Virus record (IMG/VR): IMGVR_UViG_3300046000_004459
Span: 1-24,552 of that record
Length of the DNA stretch: 24,552 bases
Direction: 5' to 3' (one strand)
DNA from: a virus
The notes beneath the pieces were generated by a model that was not told where the DNA came from, did no database searches, and was given only the letters and a program-made list of their open reading frames with translations. A program made the translations under genes and the position numbers. This document shows positions 6,593 to 22,694 of the stretch, piece after piece. The stretch's first letter is position 1; the number at the start of each line of letters is the position of its first letter.

Positions 6593-7030
6593 ATGAATCA
6601 ACTCATCAAGAAATCTAAGATCGTGACGCTGATCACGCCCACGGCGGGCGCAGCGGGCACTTCGGCCATCAACAGCTCCGTGATCGACTTCCAAGGTTAC
6701 GAGGGCGCTCTCATCATCGTCCCCGTCGGCGCTGTCGTCTCGGGTGCGGTCACCAGCTTCAAGTTCCAAGGCGGCGCGACCAGCTCGCCCACCACGGACA
6801 TTGAAGGCACTTCCCAAACCATCGCCGACACCGACGATGATACGGTGAAGTATCTGGACATCCGCCGCCCGATCCACCGCTACGGTCGCATCGTGGTCAG
6901 CCGTGGCACCCAGAACGCCACCATCGGCGGCGCAGTCGCCATCCTGTATGGCGGTCGCGACAACCCGACCACCCAAGCCGCGGGCGTAGCCGGTGAAGTC
7001 ACCGTCAGCCCTGCCGCTGGCACCGCCTGA
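6593..7030 (+). CDS. Putative head decoration or auxiliary virion protein
   Basis: A 145-residue protein with alternating hydrophobic strands (KIVTLITPTAGAAGTS, FQGYEGALIIVPVGAV, FKFQGGATSS, GRIVVSRGTQNATIGGAVAI) and no helices of note, so a beta-sandwich or barrel is likely. Position after the capsid and before the neck connector is where capsid cement and decoration proteins are usually encoded. It has no catalytic motif and I do not recognise the family by name. The start has CAACC at 6582-6586 and no Shine-Dalgarno site. The function is inferred from position only. Confidence 0.6.
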   Translation: MNQLIKKSKIVTLITPTAGAAGTSAINSSVIDFQGYEGALIIVPVGAVVSGAVTSFKFQGGATSSPTTDIEGTSQTIADTDDDTVKYLDIRRPIHRYGRIVVSRGTQNATIGGAVAILYGGRDNPTTQAAGVAGEVTVSPAAGTA

Positions 7031-7044
7031 TAACACTCCAGACC

Positions 7045-7641
7045 ATGTCCTCTTTCATTCAAACTGTGACGGATTCGGGTAACGCTCCGGTGAACATCGC
7101 CGACGCGCTCCGACACCTCCGCGCCTTGGAATCAGATACGGACATGGTCTGGAACTATCTTCTCGCAGCGACACAAGCTGTTGAAGATTACACCGGTCGT
7201 TCTTTAACGACCAAAACCTTCCGGCTCTTGTCTTCGGACTGGCCGGAAGGTCGCATTTTCGAACTCCGCCGGACTCCGTTGGTGTCTATCACCGACGTGA
7301 AGTATTACGCTTCGGGCGACACCGCCCTGACGACCATGTCCGCCTCCGCCTACCGTGCCCATACGGGCCGGACCCCCGGCGCGGTGGAGTTTTTACCCGA
7401 CACCGACCTGGAGGGCCTAGAAAGTCGCTTAGACGGCGTGCAGGTCACCTTCGTGGCGGGGTATGGAGCCGCCGCCTACCAGATACCGAACAGCCTGCGC
7501 CTCGCGGTGCTGATGCTGGCGCATCACTGGTTTGACGAGCGCCGCCCCGTGGCCGATGCCAAGGGTGCGTCCGAGATGCCGTTCAGCCTCCGCCACCTCC
7601 TGCGCTCCTATCGCGTAGACAGTCAGCTCGCCATCCCATGA
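7045..7641 (+). CDS. Head-tail connector, HK97 gp6-like
   Basis: A 198-residue adaptor expected to form a ring under the portal. Residues about 17-60 carry the family signature: IADALRHLRALESDTDMVWNYLLAATQAVEDYTGRSL, a helical bundle ending in the Thr-Gly-Arg-Ser-Leu turn. A beta segment follows (LLSSDWPEGRIFELRRTPLVSITDVKYY), and a C-terminal helix region has IPNSLRLAVLMLAHHWFDERRP. Length and order match the gp6/YqbG type. It overlaps the next gene by ATGA. The partner head-closure gene does not follow here; it is 6.4 kb downstream at 14052. Confidence 0.88.
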   Translation: MSSFIQTVTDSGNAPVNIADALRHLRALESDTDMVWNYLLAATQAVEDYTGRSLTTKTFRLLSSDWPEGRIFELRRTPLVSITDVKYYASGDTALTTMSASAYRAHTGRTPGAVEFLPDTDLEGLESRLDGVQVTFVAGYGAAAYQIPNSLRLAVLMLAHHWFDERRPVADAKGASEMPFSLRHLLRSYRVDSQLAIP

Positions 7642-8261
7642 GCATTCAAGGTAATCTAGCCGCCACGATCGTCAAGGTGCCCTTGAAGGGCCGGGTGGCG
7701 TTCGCCATGGACTTCAGTCCGGTGAGCGTCGCCGGCATGACGGTGTCACTCTACGTCGCGCCGGACGACGGCTCCGCCGAGGCCGACATCATCACGCACG
7801 AGGGCACCGACACCAAGACCAGCTCCACCGCCGTCCTGTTCGAGCTCACCTCTCCCGAGGCCCTGCTCCTGTCGGCGCAGCGTCTGCGCCCCTTCCTGGT
7901 CACACTGGCCGACGAGGCCACCGAAGAAGTCCGCTACTCCATGACGGGGTATCTGCTCCCTGTTCTCAACCTTTTCTACGGCTCTCTGGCCGCGACCATC
8001 ATGCAACCCACCCTCAACTCTGCATTCGTCAATCGCGTGGCGATCACCGCCTACGCGGGCAACGTGTCCGGGTCACTGGACTACATCACCACCGCGGACA
8101 AGTCTCTTGGCACCATCCTGGAGTTCGTTCTGGTCTCCGGCGGTCAGCCCGAGCAATGGGTCCTGGAAGCCGGGACCAACGCCACCGACGCCGGGGTGTA
8201 TCAACGCCCCAACGACTACAACGGATCCACCAACGCCCGAGTGTGGCGGCGCTGCATGTAA
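7638..8261 (+). CDS. Beta-rich tail or baseplate-type protein, unknown
   Basis: A 207-residue protein with two parts. Residues 1-105 look like a beta sandwich of the kind at the N-terminus of upper baseplate proteins (GRVAFAMDFSPVSVAGMTVSLYV, then TSSTAVLFELTSPEALLL). Residues about 140-207 hold a module ending in WVLEAGTNATDAGVYQRPN, DYNGSTNARVWRR. Similar endings occur in proteins encoded next to phage fibres. It is coupled to the connector by ATGA and followed 10 bases later by the large fibre, so it could be an adaptor that anchors fibres. That role is inference from place and fold pattern. Confidence 0.5.
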   Translation: MSIQGNLAATIVKVPLKGRVAFAMDFSPVSVAGMTVSLYVAPDDGSAEADIITHEGTDTKTSSTAVLFELTSPEALLLSAQRLRPFLVTLADEATEEVRYSMTGYLLPVLNLFYGSLAATIMQPTLNSAFVNRVAITAYAGNVSGSLDYITTADKSLGTILEFVLVSGGQPEQWVLEAGTNATDAGVYQRPNDYNGSTNARVWRRCM

Positions 8262-8271
8262 CTTTCGAACC

Positions 8272-11055
8272 ATGAAGAAATTCCTACAACTCCTCATTCC
8301 GTTCTTAGTGCTGAGCTTCACGGCTCAAGCACAGAAGAACGTTCAACAGGGCATCACCACCAAGGCGGTCACCGACGACATTGTTCTGCCCGCAGGCAAG
8401 ACGCTGACGCTCAGCGGTGTCCTCGCGGGCACGCCCACGGGCGGCACGCTGAGCCTCGCCAACCTCACGTTGACGCTCCCCACCTCCTTCACATGGGCGG
8501 GCACGCTCGCAGGAGCCAACGGAGGCACCGGAGTGGCCAACACCGGCAAGACCATCACGCTTGGCGGCAACGTCACCACCTCCGGTGCGTTCAATCTGAC
8601 GCTGACCCAGAGCGCCAACACCACCGTCACGCTGCCCACCACAGGCACGCTCGCCACGCTCGCAGGCACCGAGACGCTCACGAACAAGACCATATCTGGC
8701 GCGAGCAACACCCTCAGCGCGATCCCCAACAGCGCTCTCGGCAACAGCACGATCACCATCGCAGGCACGAGCACGGCACTCGGCGGCACGATCACGCTCG
8801 ACACGATCGACAACGGGCTGGCGTCGTCCGGCTTAATCACCCGCACCGGAGCCAACACCCGCGCCGCCCGCACACTCACAGGCACGGCGGGGCAAGTCAC
8901 TGTCACAAACGGCGACGGAGTATCTGGCAACCCGACGCTCTCGCTCCCGACCGCTATCACTGGCGTGAACTCCATGACTGCGGCAACGGGCCAATCGGCT
9001 ACCCTCACCGGCGGCGACAGCGGCGCGAGTCTGGTGTTGGGGGCGGGCACGGCAAAAGTGACTACGCACACCGGCAAGCAGTTCGACGCGTATAATCGCG
9101 CCACCATCTCAACCATCGACTCCACAGCTCTCGCAGCCGGAAACGGCGGCGGTATTAGTTTTGGCGGCGTTTTCACCGGCTCATCGACGACTACGTGGGC
9201 GGGCATTTTCGGAAACAAACTTAACGCAACGGACGGCGATTATGGAGCCTATCTTGCGTTTGCAACGCGTCTCAACGGACAGGTTTTGCTTGAAAAAGCG
9301 CGGCTGACTGACACCGGCAACCTCCTCATCGGCACCACGACGGACATCGCGGGGTCGGGCGGGCTGCACGTCGCAGGCACGGGCACGGCAAGCACGACCA
9401 CGAGCGGAGCATTTCGCGTGGGGACTAACGTCGGCCTCTCAGGCAACGCAGGCGGGGCGAGTTATTTTGGGGGTGGAGTTTTTGCGAGCGGTGGCGGCAC
9501 TAGTGCGACTATGCCGTTTTCGTCTGCGAACGCGACGCTTGGCGGATTTGAAATTTACTCCAGCTCCGCTTCCGCAAATCAAAAAATATGGCAGTGGCAA
9601 GCAGGCACCGCCATCGGCGACGGCACGATTCGGCTTCGCGCTGTAAATGATGCGCTGTCGAACGGCAGCAACGCCATCAGTATCACGCGCACGGCAGACG
9701 CGGTAGGCACCATCTCGCTCGGCACTACGTCGGCCATTGTGTCGGTTCTCGGAACAACAGCCGCCTCCTCCAGCACCACCGGCGCACTCCAAGTCGGCTC
9801 CAACGTCGGCCTGAGCGGAAACGCAGGCGGGGCGAGTTATTTTGGGGGAAGCATTTCAGCGGCGAACAACATCACCGCCACAAGCGGCACCAACCCCGTC
9901 GCCACGTCTGATTCGGCCACGATTCTCACCAACTCTTCATCCCCGCGCATTGCGCTCGTGCGTAATTCCTCAACCGCAAACTCGCGCATCTTTGAGATGC
10001 TCAACTCGGGTGACGGCGTGGTTAATTTCCGGTTTGTCAATGACGCCTACGGTGCGGCCACGAACCTGCTCACCCTGAACGGCACGAGCGCATCAGCAGG
10101 CACCGCCACCTTCGCGGGCGCGGTGACGATGAACAGCGCCTACACCGACGACACGCTTTCCAACTTCCTTACCGGGAACACCTCTAGTTACTCGACCACT
10201 TTGGGCAACTACGTTAAGACCGCCGAAGTGCGCAGCGGCACGGTCCTGAAAAGCAACGGAAGCATCCACAATAATTTCGCCGCCGGTTCGTTTGGTTGGT
10301 ATGTTGGGCAAGGCGTAGGCGATACGGCTTATGATACCTACACGCCACTTCTGGGCATCACGAGCAGCGGAGCCACCTTCGCGGGCGCGGTGAGCGCAGG
10401 CGGAAACCTGACCTTCACGGGTGGATACTCCATCAACACGAGCAGCAACAATAACCTCACGTTCAATCCCGGTGCGGGAATCGTTAAAGTCGCTGGCAGT
10501 TTCCCGACTCTCGAAGTGAGCGGGGCCAGCATCATCACCACCAACCTACAAGCAAGCGACGACGCAAACAGCATCAGCCTTGGCTTGTTCCGCGACACCA
10601 CCAGCACCCGCCGCAATGGGTGGTCGATCAACAACGAAGGCTCAAGCGGCACGCTCAATGACCTCGTTCTTTCCCGCCGTGTTACCAATGTCGATACGGT
10701 TGCGCTGCGGCTATCCAACTCCACCGGAGCCGCCACCTTCGCGGGCGCGGTGACGACCAGCTCGGGCCGCATCATCGCCACGTCGGTCAAGACCGACAGC
10801 TACACGCTCACCGCGTCGGACCACTTCATCGTTTACTCCGGCAGCAACGGATCGCGCTCGATCACGCTTCCTGCCGTCAGTGGCACCACGGGCCGAGTCT
10901 ACAAGATCAAGAACCGCGCATCCGTCCCGGTCAACGTGGTCACGACCGCTGCGGCCAATGAGATGTTCACCACCGCCGCGACCAACTCGGTCACAATGGC
11001 CGTGGGCGATGCGCACGAGTGGATTTCGGACGGCACATTCTGGAACCTGAACTAA
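8272..11055 (+). CDS. Large repetitive tail fibre with N-terminal signal peptide
   Basis: A 927-residue fibre-type protein rich in Gly, Thr, Ser and Ala. Residues 1-20 are a textbook Sec signal: MKK, then a hydrophobic core (FLQLLIPFLVLSF), then Ala-Gln-Ala before Gln21. The rest is short beta repeats such as the LTLTQSANTTVTLPTTGTLATL and TETLTNKTISGASN stretch, typical of phage fibres with triple-stranded beta shafts. Two copies of GLSGNAGGASYFGG (about residues 389-402 and 514-527) and three copies of ATFAGAV mark internal repeats. The last 110 residues (YTLTASDHFIVYSGSNGS onward, ending WISDGTFWNLN) form a compact tip domain seen in other phage fibres. I chose ATG 8272 since the frame from 8107 lies inside the previous gene. 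No Shine-Dalgarno site. A signal peptide on a virion protein is odd. Confidence 0.82.
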   Translation: MKKFLQLLIPFLVLSFTAQAQKNVQQGITTKAVTDDIVLPAGKTLTLSGVLAGTPTGGTLSLANLTLTLPTSFTWAGTLAGANGGTGVANTGKTITLGGNVTTSGAFNLTLTQSANTTVTLPTTGTLATLAGTETLTNKTISGASNTLSAIPNSALGNSTITIAGTSTALGGTITLDTIDNGLASSGLITRTGANTRAARTLTGTAGQVTVTNGDGVSGNPTLSLPTAITGVNSMTAATGQSATLTGGDSGASLVLGAGTAKVTTHTGKQFDAYNRATISTIDSTALAAGNGGGISFGGVFTGSSTTTWAGIFGNKLNATDGDYGAYLAFATRLNGQVLLEKARLTDTGNLLIGTTTDIAGSGGLHVAGTGTASTTTSGAFRVGTNVGLSGNAGGASYFGGGVFASGGGTSATMPFSSANATLGGFEIYSSSASANQKIWQWQAGTAIGDGTIRLRAVNDALSNGSNAISITRTADAVGTISLGTTSAIVSVLGTTAASSSTTGALQVGSNVGLSGNAGGASYFGGSISAANNITATSGTNPVATSDSATILTNSSSPRIALVRNSSTANSRIFEMLNSGDGVVNFRFVNDAYGAATNLLTLNGTSASAGTATFAGAVTMNSAYTDDTLSNFLTGNTSSYSTTLGNYVKTAEVRSGTVLKSNGSIHNNFAAGSFGWYVGQGVGDTAYDTYTPLLGITSSGATFAGAVSAGGNLTFTGGYSINTSSNNNLTFNPGAGIVKVAGSFPTLEVSGASIITTNLQASDDANSISLGLFRDTTSTRRNGWSINNEGSSGTLNDLVLSRRVTNVDTVALRLSNSTGAATFAGAVTTSSGRIIATSVKTDSYTLTASDHFIVYSGSNGSRSITLPAVSGTTGRVYKIKNRASVPVNVVTTAAANEMFTTAATNSVTMAVGDAHEWISDGTFWNLN
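9445..9473 (+). repeat. 29-base direct repeat in fibre gene, copy 1
   Basis: An exact 29-base match to 9820-9848, in frame and 375 bases (125 codons) apart. It encodes the Asn-Ala-Gly-Gly-Ala-Ser-Tyr-Phe-Gly core of a larger diverged protein repeat. The high identity at DNA level suggests a recent duplication or recombination point inside the fibre. Confidence 0.9.
9820..9848 (+). repeat. 29-base direct repeat in fibre gene, copy 2
   Basis: Second copy of the repeat at 9445-9473. The surrounding codons diverge (a CTC-TCA-GGC versus CTG-AGC-GGA context for the same Leu-Ser-Gly), so the conserved block is shorter than the repeated protein unit. Confidence 0.9.
10105..10126 (+). repeat. 22-base repeat in fibre gene, copy 1 of 3
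   Basis: This block encoding Ala-Thr-Phe-Ala-Gly-Ala-Val is repeated exactly at 10372-10393 and 10732-10753. It marks the boundaries of fibre segments, each followed by a different beta region. Confidence 0.9.
10372..10393 (+). repeat. 22-base repeat in fibre gene, copy 2 of 3
   Basis: Exact copy of the block at 10105-10126, in the same reading frame (267 bases apart). Confidence 0.9.
10732..10753 (+). repeat. 22-base repeat in fibre gene, copy 3 of 3
   Basis: Third exact copy, 360 bases after copy 2 and in frame. It directly precedes the C-terminal tip domain of the fibre. Confidence 0.9.
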
Positions 11056-11062
11056 CACCACC

Positions 11063-12295
11063 ATGAAACGATTTCTCACAGCCTACCTGCTCGCCGCAGG
11101 GATCACGTTCGCCGCTTATACCGGCTCGGTCTTCACGACGCCTTCACCGGCCTCGGCCTCCGCCTTTGGCGACCTCGTAACCGCCGAGTCCACGCCACTC
11201 ATTCAGCTCGACTTCATCTACGGAGCCAACACCCAGCTCGGCACGCTCAGCACCGCGTCGGCTGGCACGGCAGACACGAACGCGGGCCGGCTCCGGTTGC
11301 AGTCGGGCACCAACTCGGCAGGCTCGGCCACCTACATCTCGACCTACCCGGCGAAGTATCGGCAGGGCCAAGGCGTCACGGCGCGGTTCACAACAGTATT
11401 CACCACATCTGCGGCCAGCAACACGCAGATCGTCGGAATGGGCAACGCGTCGGACGGCTACTTCGTCGGATACAACGGCACCACGTTCGGAATCCTGCAC
11501 CGCAACGCCACCGTCAACACCTGGATCGCTCAAGCGAGCTGGAACGGAGATGCACTCGGATTCACCCTTGCGCCCACCACCGGCAACGTCTGGATGATCC
11601 GCTACCCGTTCCTCGGATACGGCGCGATCAACTTCTTCGTCCTTTCTCCTGAAGGCGCTTGGAAGCTAGCTCACACCATCCGCTACCCGAACAGCTCCGC
11701 CAGCATCCAGATCAGCAACCCCAATCTCCAGTTCTATGCGCAGAGCATCAACGCTGGGTCGACCACGAACTGCACGCTCTACGTCGGATCGGTCGGCGTA
11801 TTCCTCAACGGCGTCCGCGACTTCCTCGGCCCGGTCTATGGCACGAGCAACCGCAAGACCACTGTCACAACGCAGACCAACATCCTGACCATCCGCAATG
11901 CCACCACCTACAACGGGGTGACCAACCGTTCGCTGATCCGCATTCGGTCCATCAGCCTCGGCTGGGACAACAACTCCAGCACCTGTCTCCTCAATGTCAT
12001 CAAGGGCACCACCCTCGGCGGTTCGCCGAGCTACGCCGCCGTGAGCGGGACCACCGCCGATGGAGGGGTCACGATCACTTCCGGCCAGTCGGTCGCCAGC
12101 GTGGACACCGCTGGCACCACCACCACGGGCGGGAATGTTATCTTCAATACCTCGGCCGGGGCCAACGGCTCTCTCGTCGTAGACGTGACCCCCTTCGCCG
12201 TCTACCTTGAACCGGGCCAGACGCTCACCTTCGCAGTCACGGGCGACGCCGCTGGCGCACCCCGCGTCGCGGTCAATTGGGTTGAAGACATTTAA
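11063..12295 (+). CDS. Putative receptor-binding protein with signal peptide
   Basis: A 410-residue beta-rich protein. The N-terminus is basic (MKR), then hydrophobic (FLTAYLLAAGITFAAY), then a Pro/Ser/Ala stretch with a plausible signal-peptidase site after Ala-Ser-Ala near residue 34. Residues about 90-160 (YRQGQGVTARFTTVFT, then NASDGYFVGYNGTTFGILHRN and TWIAQASWNGD) match a pattern I associate with structural proteins of several phages and large viruses, with a jelly-roll or lectin-like look. The C-terminal third (SLVVDVTPFAVYLEPGQTLTFAV, then APRVAVNWVEDI) is another beta domain. It lies 7 bases after the fibre, so the two probably act together in host recognition. Receptor binding is inferred, not shown. 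Confidence 0.6.
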   Translation: MKRFLTAYLLAAGITFAAYTGSVFTTPSPASASAFGDLVTAESTPLIQLDFIYGANTQLGTLSTASAGTADTNAGRLRLQSGTNSAGSATYISTYPAKYRQGQGVTARFTTVFTTSAASNTQIVGMGNASDGYFVGYNGTTFGILHRNATVNTWIAQASWNGDALGFTLAPTTGNVWMIRYPFLGYGAINFFVLSPEGAWKLAHTIRYPNSSASIQISNPNLQFYAQSINAGSTTNCTLYVGSVGVFLNGVRDFLGPVYGTSNRKTTVTTQTNILTIRNATTYNGVTNRSLIRIRSISLGWDNNSSTCLLNVIKGTTLGGSPSYAAVSGTTADGGVTITSGQSVASVDTAGTTTTGGNVIFNTSAGANGSLVVDVTPFAVYLEPGQTLTFAVTGDAAGAPRVAVNWVEDI

Positions 12296-12304
12296 TTTTC
12301 CACC

Positions 12305-12676
12305 ATGAAGAAACTAATCACACTCCTACTCAGTATCGCGGTCGCGTCGCTGCTCATCGCAGCCGCTGCCACCGCCACCGTCGAGACCAAACTCGCCCGC
12401 ATCCAAACCGACCCGAACTCTGGGGACGACCCGGTCGCGACGGCCTACTTCTCGCAGACCACCACGGTCGGGGATCAGAAGTTTGAAGCGCCGTGGACTT
12501 CCGTATCGTGGCGGCTCAAGGACGTCGAAAAGACGGTGACGGTGGGCGACCTCACTCTCGCCTACGCGCAGGTCTCCCAGTTCGTCACCGCCATCGCGGA
12601 CAAAGAACATGCTGCGATGCTCGCTGCCAAAGCCGCCGCCGCTATTCCGGCCCCCACCCCCGAGCCTAACCTGTGA
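12305..12676 (+). CDS. Small exported protein, unknown function
   Basis: A 123-residue protein whose first 24 residues form a signal peptide or N-terminal membrane anchor: MKK, a core of Leu/Ile/Ala/Val, and an Ala-Thr-Ala site before Thr25. The mature part begins ETKLARIQTDPNSGDDPVATAYFSQ, with a compact mixed alpha/beta look, then a helix (YAQVSQFVTAIADKEHAAML) and a Pro/Ala-rich tail. It is the third gene in a row with such an N-terminus. It overlaps the next gene by GTGA, so its product may be made with the lysis genes. No family recognised. Confidence 0.6.
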   Translation: MKKLITLLLSIAVASLLIAAAATATVETKLARIQTDPNSGDDPVATAYFSQTTTVGDQKFEAPWTSVSWRLKDVEKTVTVGDLTLAYAQVSQFVTAIADKEHAAMLAAKAAAAIPAPTPEPNL

Positions 12677-13149
12677 CCCGCGCCGACGTCATCACCTCTC
12701 TCATATCCCAGGGCCTGTTCAACGGGCTCTGGGATCTTGACGATATGAACTACGAGAGCCTCTCGTGGCAGTTCGTCACCGAGGCCCGCGCCGCTTGGCT
12801 CGAGACCCTGCCCGCGGAACTCGTGGCATGGCGGGAGCTGGGGCTGTCCGGCAAGGTGGTCAAGACCGTCAAGTGGCTCCCGGAAGTCTTTGACTGCGAT
12901 AACATCGCCCGCGACTTCGGGGTGTATCTGGCGCGGTGCATGGCAGCCAAGGCGGTCCGGGAGGGCAAGGCCCTCGGCAACGTGGCCTCCGGTAAGCTCA
13001 ACTTCCAACCCACCCCCACCACCGGACACGCTGTCAACTGGTTCATCGACCACAACGGTCGCGCCAACACCTACGACGCCGGGGCCGACATCCTCAACCC
13101 TCTCAGCGCGGCTGACGCCCGCACCGTCTCCAATGGTGAAACTATCTAG
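12673..13149 (+). CDS. Papain-like (MOA C-terminal-like) cysteine peptidase candidate, possible endolysin
   Basis: A 158-residue protein starting with GTG 12673, which overlaps the preceding TGA. The centre holds WLPEVFDCDNIARDF, with Cys75 at the start of a helix, and TTGHAVNWFIDHNG, with His119. Asp126 or Asp135 could complete the triad. This Cys-helix ... Gly-His-Ala-x-Asn-Trp spacing resembles the papain-like C-terminal domain of Marasmius oreades agglutinin and related phage and bacterial proteins. It sits directly before small membrane and lipoprotein genes, where a cell-wall-degrading enzyme is expected, and no other endolysin is seen in the cassette. The NlpC/P60-like gene at 19091 belongs to the tail tip. 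The fold match is moderate; the endolysin role is inference. It could instead process virion proteins. Confidence 0.6.
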   Translation: MTRADVITSLISQGLFNGLWDLDDMNYESLSWQFVTEARAAWLETLPAELVAWRELGLSGKVVKTVKWLPEVFDCDNIARDFGVYLARCMAAKAVREGKALGNVASGKLNFQPTPTTGHAVNWFIDHNGRANTYDAGADILNPLSAADARTVSNGETI

Positions 13150-13264
13150 CCTCTTACTCGTGGCGCTCCTTTCGGGGTGTGCCTCTGTTCCCGCAACCGA
13201 CCCTCGTGACCCGAAGGTCCTCCCTCCAAAGTCCAACGTTCAGTATCCCAGTCCTCATGAATAA
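13133..13264 (+). CDS. Tiny lipoprotein, outer-membrane spanin (Rz1-like) candidate
   Basis: A 43-residue protein that overlaps the end of the peptidase gene. It has a short signal (MVKLSSLLLVALLSG) and a clear lipobox Leu-Ser-Gly-Cys with Cys16 as the lipid-bearing residue. A Pro-rich tail of 27 residues follows (DPRDPKVLPPKSNVQYPSP). Small Pro-rich lipoproteins like this are typical outer-membrane spanin subunits, which join with an inner-membrane partner to disrupt the outer membrane at lysis. The lipobox shares LLSGCAS with the second lipoprotein at 13589. It overlaps the next gene by 8 bases. Confidence 0.7.
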   Translation: MVKLSSLLLVALLSGCASVPATDPRDPKVLPPKSNVQYPSPHE

Positions 13265-13460
13265 AGCCTCCATCCTCAAGTATCTCGCACTCCTCGGCAA
13301 AGCCGCGGGCCTCCTGGCCGGCCTCAACGCCATTCCGTTCATCAAGCCCGAACTCGGCATCGTCATCTTCGCGTCGGCCTCCATCCTCAAGGATGTGGTC
13401 AACCGCGTCGGCGACCTATTGGACGACGGCCAGACCAACGGCAGCTTCAAATCTGAATAA
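13257..13460 (+). CDS. Small membrane protein, holin candidate
   Basis: A 67-residue protein with two hydrophobic stretches: about residues 8-29 (KYLALLGKAAGLLAGLNAIPF) and 34-45 (LGIVIFASASIL). A charged, flexible C-terminus follows (DVVNRVGDLLDDGQTNGSFK). Size, two short membrane spans and place in a cassette with lipoproteins fit a holin, which would form membrane holes to release the endolysin. The second stretch is short and could instead be an amphipathic helix. ATG 13257 overlaps the lipoprotein stop by 8 bases; a longer frame from 13179 overlaps too much to be credible. Confidence 0.6.
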   Translation: MNKASILKYLALLGKAAGLLAGLNAIPFIKPELGIVIFASASILKDVVNRVGDLLDDGQTNGSFKSE

Positions 13461-13461
13461 C

Positions 13462-13638
13462 ATGGTCACCGCCATCCTCTCTTTCTTGGGTAGTGTGGTT
13501 TCCGCACTACCCAAACTCTTGGAGTTCTATTCCAAGTGGCGCAAAGAGCAGGCTGCGACCAAAGACAAACTCGCCAAGGACACCCGCAATGAAGAAGCTA
13601 TCAAACGTGCTTTGGATAGTGGGCGTGGTGCTCCTTAG
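13462..13638 (+). CDS. Short inner-membrane spanin-like protein
   Basis: A 58-residue protein with an N-terminal hydrophobic segment (VTAILSFLGSVVSALPKLLEF, residues 2-22) and then a charged helix rich in Lys, Glu and Ala (KWRKEQAATKDKLAKDTRNEEAIKRAL), likely coiled coil. This is the layout of an Rz-type inner-membrane spanin, though much shorter than lambda Rz. The second lipoprotein gene begins inside it in another frame (13589), which is the classic Rz/Rz1 nested arrangement and supports the role. No Shine-Dalgarno site is seen before ATG 13462. Confidence 0.6.
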   Translation: MVTAILSFLGSVVSALPKLLEFYSKWRKEQAATKDKLAKDTRNEEAIKRALDSGRGAP

Positions 13639-13795
13639 CGGGTGCGCCTCGCTGCCCACCGCGCCCCGCCGCGACGCCACCGCCGCCCTCATCGCCCGCC
13701 CCGACTTCCGCACCGCCGCTACTGCCGCCCCTGAATGGGTTAGAGAAGCTCTCCGAACCATCACCTCCTACGAAAGCGAACTTGCCTCCAAATGA
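13589..13795 (+). CDS. Rz1-like lipoprotein nested in spanin gene
   Basis: A 68-residue lipoprotein that starts 50 bases before the end of the upstream spanin-like gene, in another frame. The signal (MKKLSNVLWIVGVVLLSG) ends in Leu-Ser-Gly-Cys with Cys19 as lipid attachment. The mature part is Ala/Arg-rich and ends in a helix (EWVREALRTITSYESELASK). An AAGGA at 13576-13580 with 8-base spacing supports the start. It overlaps the next gene by ATGA. As the partner of the 13462 protein it is the better candidate for the outer-membrane spanin, but the lipoprotein at 13133 competes for that role. Confidence 0.72.
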   Translation: MKKLSNVLWIVGVVLLSGCASLPTAPRRDATAALIARPDFRTAATAAPEWVREALRTITSYESELASK

Positions 13796-14055
13796 ATCAA
13801 GAAAAACAACCAAGTCTCGACGAAAGCACTCCGGTCTTCACCAACCTAAGGACCATCGGGGTCCTGATTGCCGGGATTGCCGCCGGTGTCTCCGCGTGGG
13901 CGTGGGCGTTGTCCGACGTCCGGGCGCAGGCCACCCTCCTTAAGAACCACGGCACCCGCATCGAGTTCCTGGAGACCCGGTTCAGCGCAGACCACGACCT
14001 GCTCCTGGAAATCCGGGGCGATGTCAAGGCGTTGCGCGAAAGGAGCGGCAAATGA
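13792..14055 (+). CDS. Membrane protein with coiled coil, holin- or XhlA-like candidate
   Basis: An 87-residue protein with one membrane helix at about residues 22-40 (IGVLIAGIAAGVSAWAWAL) and then a long charged helix (SDVRAQATLLKNHGTRIEFLE, then LLLEIRGDVKALRERSG). The first 20 residues are polar. Small phage proteins with a membrane helix plus coiled coil occur in lysis cassettes as holin helpers or as inner spanins. It is the third membrane protein in this cassette and is joined to its neighbours by ATGA overlaps on both sides. Exact role is open. Confidence 0.55.
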   Translation: MNQEKQPSLDESTPVFTNLRTIGVLIAGIAAGVSAWAWALSDVRAQATLLKNHGTRIEFLETRFSADHDLLLEIRGDVKALRERSGK

Positions 14056-19493: not shown

Positions 19494-22400
19494 ATGCCCG
19501 CACTAGTCGCAGCCGCTGTCGCAGCCGTCGCACCTTCCACCGCCGCTTGGGGCCTGACCCTGACGGTCGGTTCCACAGTTATCGGCACCGCCTCCTTCGC
19601 CACCCTGATCGGCTACGCCGCGACGATCGGCGGAGCGATTGCCTATGGGCAGTCGCAGGCGAACAAGCTGAAGAACATGTCCAAGCTCACGGTGGACCAA
19701 GGTCGCAGCGTGATGGCCCGTGACCCGCTGGCCAGCCGCCGCCTGATCTACGGTCAGGTGCTGGTGACCGGACCCGTGGTGTTCATGACCACCTCCGGCA
19801 CGAAGAATGAGTGGCTTCATATGTGCGTGGCCTTGGCGGGCCATGAGGTTGAGGAGATCGGCACGATCTATTTCGACAACGGTGAAGAGGTGACGCTCGA
19901 CGGCTCCGGGGCTGCGACCGGCAAGTATGCCGGAAAATTCTTTTGCACCAAGCACCTCGGCACCGCCGACCAGCTCGTGGACGGATCCATCCAGAGCAAC
20001 GTCCCGACCGAATGGACCGCCGACCACCGGCTCCGGGGCATCGCGTATCTGGCGATGTCGTTCTATTACGACACCGACCTCTTCCCCAACGGTGTGCCGA
20101 CGGTCAAGGCGATGGTCAAGGGTGCCAAGGTTTACGACCCTCGGGAGGCCGGACACAACTCCGCCGACCCGACCACGTGGACATGGAGCGCCAACTCCGC
20201 ACTCTGTGCGGCGCACTACCTGAACAATTCGAAGTTCGGTCGGGGCATAGCATGGAGCCGTATCAACACGACCGGGCTGATCAGTGAGGCCAACATCTGC
20301 GACGAGCTGGTGACGCTGGCCGACGCCAGCACCGAGAAGCGATACCAGACCAACGGCACCACCAACTCCGACCAAGACGCCCGCGGAGACCTCTGCGCCG
20401 CGATGGCGGGGCGCATCATCGAGACCGGCGGCATCTGGTCCATTCAGGCCGGGGCCTACCGGACCCCCGGAGCGATGACGATCACCGACGACATGATCGT
20501 GGGGGCCTTTAACGTGCAGACGCGCCAGTCCATGCGCGAGACCTTCAGCGGCGTCAAGGGCACTTTCATCGCGCCCATCAACGAGTGGATGCCGGCGGAC
20601 TTCCCCGCGGTCAAGAACGACACTTACATGGCCGACGACGGCGGGGTGCGCCGATGGAAGGACGTCAGCTACCCCTTCATCACCTCGGCGGCCACGGCGC
20701 AGCGGCTCAGCAAGATCGATCTGGAGCGCGGGCGTCAGCAGATCGTGGTCAGCACCGTCCTGCGCCTCGACGCTTTCAAGCTGGCGTGCGGCGACACCGT
20801 CGCGGTGACGCGGGCCAGTCTGGGTTGGAGCGCGAAGCTGTTTGAAGTTATCGAGTGGAAGTTCCAGGTGATGGACAACAACGGACTCGGCGTGGCGGTC
20901 ACGCTCAAGGAGACCGCGGAGGCGGTGTGGGATTGGGCCAACGGTGAGGAGACCACGGTGGATCTGGCCCCCAACACCACACTCCCCGACCCCACCGTCG
21001 TCCCGACGCCCGTGCTGACCCTGCTGACGGACAGCACCACCGCCACCATCCAGCCCGACGGCACCGTGCAGCCGCGACTGAAGGCTTCCTGGACCACGCC
21101 GAACAACATCTACGTTGAGAACGGCGGCTATGTGGAGATCGAGTTCAAGAAGACCACCGACACTGACTACACGGTCTGGAGCGTCATTCGCGGCGACGCG
21201 CTGTTCGACTACATCCTGGACGTCAAGGTGGGGGTGCAATACAACGTCCGCGTCCGCTTCCGCAATCAGGCGGGGGTGCGCGGGGCCTACGACACGGAGA
21301 CCTCGTCTGCCGTGGTGGGCGATACCACCACGCCCAACGGTGTCGGGGGCACCATCAGCGCCACCGCCCGCGCGGGGTTTATCGATTTGCAGTGGACACC
21401 CTCAACCTCCGGAACCGTGAACGAATACTACATCTATCGATCAATCGTCAGTGCAGTCGCAGGCTTTGCTCTGCTCGCCCAAACCGCGAACTCCCAGTAT
21501 CAGGATTCCAGCGTCACCGCTGGGACGACGTATTACTACTACGTCGTAGCACAGAGCGCCTCGGGGATTGATTCCCCGGCGTCCAGTGTGGTCAGCGCGG
21601 CGGCTATCTTCGCCCCGAACGGCGTCGTGCCGAGCAGCCCCACCGCCCCCGCGCAACCGGGCTCGCCCGTGGTGGGCACCTACGACGCGACGGATGGCAG
21701 CGTCTTCGCCTTTGTCACTCTGGACATCGCCGCCATGCCGACCGGGGCGGTGTGGCAGAACCTGCTCTATCGCCGCACCGGCTCGGGCGATTGGATGGTG
21801 GCGGCGCAGTTTAAGAACACCGGCAGCACGACCATCCGTCTGGACGACCTGAGCCCCGGCGTCGGCTACGACATCGCCATGCAGGCTTGGAACGGCGCAG
21901 GCGGCTCGGCGGTGGTGACAGGCACGAGCTTCACCTCGTCGACCAAGACTGCCGCCTCTTCGCTACCGACCTCTCTGGCGGCTCATGCGCCGAGCAGCAC
22001 CTACCCGGCGTCCGCCCACTACTTCGGCGCGACTCAAGAATATTCCTGCGTCATCACTTTCGTGCCTTCGACTTCGAAAGATGTGGAAGCTTACGAGTTT
22101 GGCATCAACGTCAACTCGGGACAAGACCCTACTCAAGCGGGTGGGTTTGTGTTTGCTTCGGTGCCTGCCGGAGCGACTCAGGTCCAATACAACTCCATCC
22201 TCCTGGTCGCCCAGTATCTATGGTATCGCGCTAAGAATGTCAGCGGTGTGTGGACCGCCTGGACGGATTCAGGTATCAACGTGAACGGTTTCTTGGCCAT
22301 CCCGGCGGGGACCATGTCTTCTCAGAATGCCAGCGGTGTAGCTATCACCGGCGGGACGGCGGTGCTGGCGTCGGAGCGCACCGCCTCCCTAACCGTAGCG

Positions 22401-22694
22401 CCTGCCGCCGCCGCCAGCCCCCGCGCCAACCTTGCGATCTTCGCCGGGACGGATGTGAAGAACTTTACCGGCGGCTCGCCCACGGAGAACCTCGACGTGG
22501 ACATTACCGACCGCGGCTTCACCGCGAAGCCCGACTGGGGCATCATTCAGATCTACGACACCAACTTCCTCGGTGTCTACGACTACGACACATCCTCCAC
22601 TAGCACGAACGCTCGGTTCGTGATCTTCTCCAAGGACGGTAGCAACCTTGCCAGCGGCAATCGGCGCTACCACTTCATCTTGGGCAAATACTGA
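19494..22694 (+). CDS. Central tail hub / host-specificity protein, J-like, with FN3 domains
   Basis: A 1066-residue hub at the tail tip. Residues 1-55 are Ala/Gly-rich and strongly hydrophobic (two helices), as in many J-like proteins, and may contact the membrane. Residues about 70-490 form the hub body, with LASRRLIYGQVLVTGPVVFMT and the AGRIIETGGIWSIQAGAYR strand pair. About four fibronectin-III-like domains follow at roughly 500-615, 618-702, 717-817 and 821-932, marked by Tyr-x-Val-x-Val and YYYYVVAQS-type strands. The final 130 residues end in GFTAKPDWGIIQIYDTNFLGVYDYD and NRRYHFILGKY, a tip domain shared by other phage hubs. It probably helps choose the host. The gene ends the + operon. 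Confidence 0.88.
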   Translation: MPALVAAAVAAVAPSTAAWGLTLTVGSTVIGTASFATLIGYAATIGGAIAYGQSQANKLKNMSKLTVDQGRSVMARDPLASRRLIYGQVLVTGPVVFMTTSGTKNEWLHMCVALAGHEVEEIGTIYFDNGEEVTLDGSGAATGKYAGKFFCTKHLGTADQLVDGSIQSNVPTEWTADHRLRGIAYLAMSFYYDTDLFPNGVPTVKAMVKGAKVYDPREAGHNSADPTTWTWSANSALCAAHYLNNSKFGRGIAWSRINTTGLISEANICDELVTLADASTEKRYQTNGTTNSDQDARGDLCAAMAGRIIETGGIWSIQAGAYRTPGAMTITDDMIVGAFNVQTRQSMRETFSGVKGTFIAPINEWMPADFPAVKNDTYMADDGGVRRWKDVSYPFITSAATAQRLSKIDLERGRQQIVVSTVLRLDAFKLACGDTVAVTRASLGWSAKLFEVIEWKFQVMDNNGLGVAVTLKETAEAVWDWANGEETTVDLAPNTTLPDPTVVPTPVLTLLTDSTTATIQPDGTVQPRLKASWTTPNNIYVENGGYVEIEFKKTTDTDYTVWSVIRGDALFDYILDVKVGVQYNVRVRFRNQAGVRGAYDTETSSAVVGDTTTPNGVGGTISATARAGFIDLQWTPSTSGTVNEYYIYRSIVSAVAGFALLAQTANSQYQDSSVTAGTTYYYYVVAQSASGIDSPASSVVSAAAIFAPNGVVPSSPTAPAQPGSPVVGTYDATDGSVFAFVTLDIAAMPTGAVWQNLLYRRTGSGDWMVAAQFKNTGSTTIRLDDLSPGVGYDIAMQAWNGAGGSAVVTGTSFTSSTKTAASSLPTSLAAHAPSSTYPASAHYFGATQEYSCVITFVPSTSKDVEAYEFGINVNSGQDPTQAGGFVFASVPAGATQVQYNSILLVAQYLWYRAKNVSGVWTAWTDSGINVNGFLAIPAGTMSSQNASGVAITGGTAVLASERTASLTVAPAAAASPRANLAIFAGTDVKNFTGGSPTENLDVDITDRGFTAKPDWGIIQIYDTNFLGVYDYDTSSTSTNARFVIFSKDGSNLASGNRRYHFILGKY

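Follow-up and report, generated by a model that had tools for sequence, protein, structure and literature searches.

The window, that is, the whole stretch of 24,552 nucleotides analysed here, is a 24.5 kb metagenomic contig of an uncultured tailed phage; the contig is incomplete and its gene starts are predicted. It encodes a terminase, a portal protein and an HK97-type capsid, together with a run of three adhesin-type genes (referred to below as the fibre, the 11063 protein and the small protein) that are all open and ATG-initiated and lie tightly packed, with gaps of 7 and 9 bp. All three start codons share the context ..ACC-ATG-AA... The features of the run and of its downstream neighbours are listed below, an arrow marking a proposed cut.

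8272..8331, + strand: Sec/SPase I signal of the fibre, MKKFLQLLIPFLVLSFTAQA↓Q; passes the calibrated signal rule; spelled with other letters in the related loci L245 and L246
8272..11055, + strand: tail-fibre-like protein, 927 aa, 0 cysteine; shaft similarity to phage fibres, N-terminus without known docking domain
11063..11158, + strand: Sec/SPase I signal of the 11063 protein, residues 1–32; passes the rule; single possible start; low-confidence tail in the structure model
11063..12295, + strand: phrog_1645-family lectin-like protein and putative receptor-binding protein, 410 aa; profile and structure matches
12305..12676, + strand: small partner, 123 aa, predicted to be exported; signal or anchor at residues 1–25; passes the rule
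12673..13149, + strand: papain-fold-like protein, signal-less; fourth cassette gene, from alignment with L245 and L246
13133..14055, + strand: lysis-type genes adjoining the cassette, from sequence features
13133–13264 and 13589–13795, + strand: lipoprotein ORFs with lipoboxes VALLSGC and VVLLSGC, respectively
13257–13460, 13459–13638 and 13792–14055, + strand: small membrane proteins, from sequence features

The lipoprotein and membrane-protein ORFs resemble holin and spanin genes, with a weak holin/anti-holin match for 13792–14055 (E = 0.0073), and the envelope-directed run thus reaches approximately position 14055. The window also encodes a J-type central tail-tip protein (19494–22694; phrog_5616, E = 2e-93; phrog_31, E = 9e-57) that bears fibronectin III-type domains, and the phage therefore has another candidate receptor-binding protein.

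Export signals of the three proteins

Each of the three N-termini combines a positive n-region, an uncharged hydrophobic core and a cleavage site of the A-x-A type, as in Sec/SPase I signals: MKKFLQLLIPFLVLSFTAQA↓QKN for the fibre, MKRFLTAYLLAAGITFAAYTGSVFTTPSPASA↓SAFGD for the 11063 protein and MKKLITLLLSIAVASLLIAAAATATVET for the small protein. The exact cleavage sites are uncertain, and the matrix used places its best cut at residue 17 of the 11063 protein and residue 19 of the small protein. Inspection of the three signals revealed no twin arginine and no lipobox cysteine; since they contain no cysteine, they are not those of lipoproteins (SPase II).

Signals were called by a strict rule that joins a cleavage matrix of the von Heijne type to an uncharged hydrophobic core and a positive n-region. 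Of the E. coli K-12 controls it passes 24/27 exported proteins and 7/29 inner-membrane proteins, but none of the cytoplasmic ones (0/78). Five of the 29 window genes pass, namely the three of the adhesin run, the lipoprotein ORF 13133–13264 and the membrane protein 13792–14055. Among crudely called viral ORFs the background is 39/2161 (1.8%), and the chance of three consecutive passes is of the order of 1e-5. The preliminary description had reported three consecutive Sec-type signal peptides and judged such a run improbable by chance, and both statements hold: three adjacent signals are not a chance occurrence. The background among viral ORFs of at least 350 aa is 4/490; two of these (L047 and L140) were considered as further phage cases and rejected, as they look like bacterial proteins, with a PEP-CTERM motif in L047.

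The 19-residue Kyte–Doolittle maxima are 1.17 for the fibre, 1.35 for the 11063 protein and 2.58 for the small protein. By this measure the N-termini of the fibre and the 11063 protein are predicted to be weak as membrane anchors, and that of the small protein could instead be an anchor.

Phage ancestry of the adhesin bodies

Residues 24–376 of the 11063 protein match phrog_1645 (E = 1.2e-26), a family annotated as virion structural protein with members in cyanophages, HMO-2011, phiGT1 and HGTV-1. Its AlphaFold model (mean pLDDT 86.9) is confident beta structure from residue 33 onwards, with residues 1–32 below 50. Matches among solved structures are legume-type lectins and the sugar-binding domains of Emp46/47, at query-normalised TM-scores of ∼0.35 and over one domain only; predicted viral structures match nearly the whole chain. 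No solved homologue was found by sequence. The 11063 start is firm, since no in-frame ATG, GTG or TTG lies between signal and domain. Complete starts are available for 49 distinct homologues, of which a single one (L131) carries a signal; the closest relatives have different, signal-less N-termini, attached at the same ..FG.. boundary or close to it. Most relatives thus lack the segment, which the preliminary description had named as an observation that would count against its reading, but they do not simply start further downstream. The 11063 protein has 2 cysteines, compared with 5, 5, 6 and 5 in the close signal-less relatives L082, L083, L084 and L093, and export for the sake of disulfide formation is not supported, as the signal-bearing form has fewer cysteines.

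The fibre shaft (residues ∼72–243) is built of repeats common to phage fibres and is up to 70% identical to many of them. The export signal is absent in all 80 loci with shaft-sharing fibres, many of which are near-identical; these fibres begin with other N-terminal domains, the Mtd_N docking domain being present in 2 of the 10 tested. For the N-terminus of the window fibre no domain was found in Pfam or PHROGs, including any tail-docking domain, and residues 21–75 may hold a docking domain of unrecognised type. The C-terminal domain of the fibre occurs directly upstream of 11063-type genes in L002/L125 (a single contig), L112–L115, L128 and L144, with signals absent from both genes of the pair at each of these loci; a known phage gene pair therefore bears signals on both members here. 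Among 50,697 phage records, no relatives of the fibre or the small protein were found.

The preliminary description had also offered capture of domains from host secreted proteins. For the bodies this finds no support, as both large ones belong to phage families; a host origin is conceivable for the signals alone.

The small protein belongs to no known family in Pfam or PHROGs, and its structure model (pLDDT 61.9) is too poor for use. The papain-fold-like protein encoded at 12673 has a weak match to Agglutinin_C that is below the cut-off (E = 0.0028); its Cys75, His119 and Asn122 are conserved in the window phage, L245 and L246, and it is possibly an endolysin or peptidase. Relatives lie at L245 8097–8552, L246 8553–8984 and near position 5643 of L110, where the gene sits upstream of an 11063-type gene.

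Recurrence on other backbones

A scan with fibre residues 16–85 found L245 and L246, which with the window make up the three known members of the cassette (n = 3). Both have the order signal-bearing fibre, signal-bearing small protein, papain-like protein, and both lack an 11063-type gene within the cassette; the other genes of L245, L246 and the window phage differ, such that the three cassettes lie on different backbones. The fibre signals read MKPLTAHRSLLTACLLGSLLLAPCSLLA↓QQG in L246 and MKLPHNFTRLAFAPFALIAAALWFALAPSSSA↓QPT in L245. The window small protein is 58% identical to its counterpart in L245 and 42% to that in L246, both of which adjoin signal-bearing fibres and carry signals themselves; in both loci the signals of fibre and small protein have diverged in their letters but are retained. 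The signal-bearing fibre sits between tail genes in L246 and just after the tail genes in L245.

In L131, which has yet another backbone, a signal opens the 11063-type gene as well as the gene that follows it, and each signal leads into a common KVRxCDxxGAxCALV stretch. These two adjacent genes (6797–9035) share this N-terminal module and have different bodies. In L246, an ORF directly after the major capsid gene (861–1601) has an apparent export signal, MKKLLLVSLLLAPCSLLRLAAQ, that does not pass the strict rule; it has SLLLAPCSLL in common with the L246 fibre, as if a signal had been copied between genes.

Recurrence in L245, L246 and L131 indicates that the signals are additions that have since been kept. 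On these comparisons the N-terminus has been replaced in particular lineages, rather than the start having been called wrongly, and the three genes are best read as the leading part of a mobile cassette whose phage adhesins are predicted to be exported by Sec.

Relatives of the capsid and TerL have only backbone genes in common with the window phage and are uninformative on the cassette. The best TerL relative (61% identical) comes from a short contig assigned to a Planctomycetota bin; searches of Planctomycetota genomes (294, 294 and 392) yielded L238, an 11063 relative that lacks a signal, and apart from it only weak or chance matches. Shine–Dalgarno motifs precede 5/27 genes in the window, 2/23 in L245 and 3/17 in L246, against 11/22 in an E. 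coli control under the same crude test. As a lead only, such low numbers would suit host phyla such as Verrucomicrobiota or Bacteroidota.

Proposed export and role of the adhesins

To judge from their N-termini, the three proteins are very probably exported. Fibre and phrog_1645 lectin-type genes, which encode virion parts in other phages, start here with SPase I-type signals; we propose that their products pass through host SecYEG and are then cleaved by SPase I. Once in the envelope or the medium, both fibre and lectin-like protein would bind the surface receptor of the phage, as fold and family suggest, and the small protein may help to fold or stabilise the fibre, as the co-conservation of both signals suggests. 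Off the virion, the adhesins might occupy receptors on the infected cell and on debris, with less superinfection and less loss of progeny; this is the least certain step.

We regard it as evenly balanced that the exported proteins act off the virion, and receptor occupation as more likely than assembly onto virions at lysis, because the domains with which related fibres begin are missing from this fibre and the phage has a J-type tail-tip protein besides; the position of the cassette next to lysis-type genes also favours it. The signal calls and their 1.8% background, the signal-less homologues and fibre/11063 gene pairs of other phages, the diverged but retained signals, the tandem pair of L131 and the lower cysteine number of the 11063 protein relative to its signal-less relatives all count for this explanation. 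Counting against it are the membership of the 11063 protein in a virion family, the location, fitting for a virion part, of the signal-bearing fibre among the tail genes of L245 and L246, the need for exported proteins to also cross an outer membrane to surface receptors, or to await lysis, the possibility that the small-protein N-terminus is an anchor, and the small number of known cassette members (three).

The same virion ancestry and gene positions would suit late assembly outside the cytoplasm. In this account the exported fibre and lectin-like protein would reach their folded state in the periplasm, helped by the small protein acting as a chaperone, and would be added to virions when the cell lyses; mature particles would then carry processed N-termini. 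The small gene occupies a place where genes for fibre chaperones are often found, and the signal-like protein directly after the capsid gene of L246 also agrees with a virion role. However, the fibre does not have the N-terminal domains of related fibres, the window phage has its own J-type tail tip and the literature searched held no tailed-phage precedent, which makes this account doubtful. It is similarly a tentative notion, and on balance an unlikely one, that certain tailed phages form a group in which the adhesion apparatus is partly made outside the cytoplasm, with virion-family fibres, lectin-type proteins and a partner dedicated to them passing through Sec from one mobile cassette and joining the particles at lysis. 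Of the options raised in the preliminary description, a role outside the cytoplasm in general is supported by signals on phage adhesins that are found again in L245, L246 and L131 and have been kept although their letters changed; late assembly is not separated by these data from display or receptor occupation.

Display in a lysogen or infected cell, where the proteins would remain at the host surface or close to it, altering adhesion to the benefit of host or prophage, is consistent with adhesin folds bearing signals and with a small protein that could be membrane-anchored. It is nevertheless improbable, as no integrase or other lysogeny gene was recognised in the 24.5 kb of this incomplete contig, the cassette genes run with late genes and no surface-anchoring motif (lipobox, LPXTG or autotransporter) was seen in the fibre or the 11063 protein. 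That the hydrophobic N-termini serve in virion docking or membrane insertion, or stem from wrongly called starts, in a phage with the usual cytoplasmic assembly is likewise improbable: although the rule also passes some inner-membrane proteins and start codons are predicted, with few Shine–Dalgarno motifs, all three segments (3/3) have the positive start, uncharged core and A-x-A end, signals are kept in three diverged cassettes, the 11063 gene is without an alternative start and the fibre and 11063 segments are too weak as anchors.

The proposed export of these adhesins can be compared with several known systems. Llp of T5 and Cor of phi80, N15 and HK022 are receptor-blocking exported phage proteins and small lipoproteins. 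Like them, the window proteins would be phage proteins sent to the envelope, with a suggested action on the receptor that the phage itself uses; unlike them, they are large adhesins of virion ancestry with no lipobox. The textbook view is that tailed phages assemble in the cytoplasm. The inovirus coat proteins pIII and pVIII are virion proteins with cleaved signals that are assembled outside the cytoplasm; inoviruses, however, are filamentous phages extruded through membranes, whereas the window phage is tailed, with terminase, portal and HK97-type capsid. Sec-exported endolysins are known, including Lys44 of fOg44, the SAR endolysins and LysA of Ms6 with Gp1 (PMC6116005). As with these, a late phage protein would be handed to the host Sec system, and the cassette adjoins lysis-type genes, but the cargo is an adhesin and not a lysin. 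The open literature searched contained such exported endolysins and no signal-bearing tail fibre.

If Sec signals have repeatedly been added to adhesins of virion families and kept on different backbones, this would mean either that a tailed virion can be partly made outside the cytoplasm or that phages reuse adhesins as secreted tools. A 'tail fibre' annotation alone is no proof of virion location. The body of the 11063 protein belongs by profile match to phrog_1645, whose annotated members are virion proteins and whose members compared here, except L131, are without the signal that the 11063 protein carries. Likewise, fibres with Mtd_N or other tail-docking N-termini have the same shaft repeats as the window fibre, in which an export signal replaces the N-terminal domain of these docking-type fibres.
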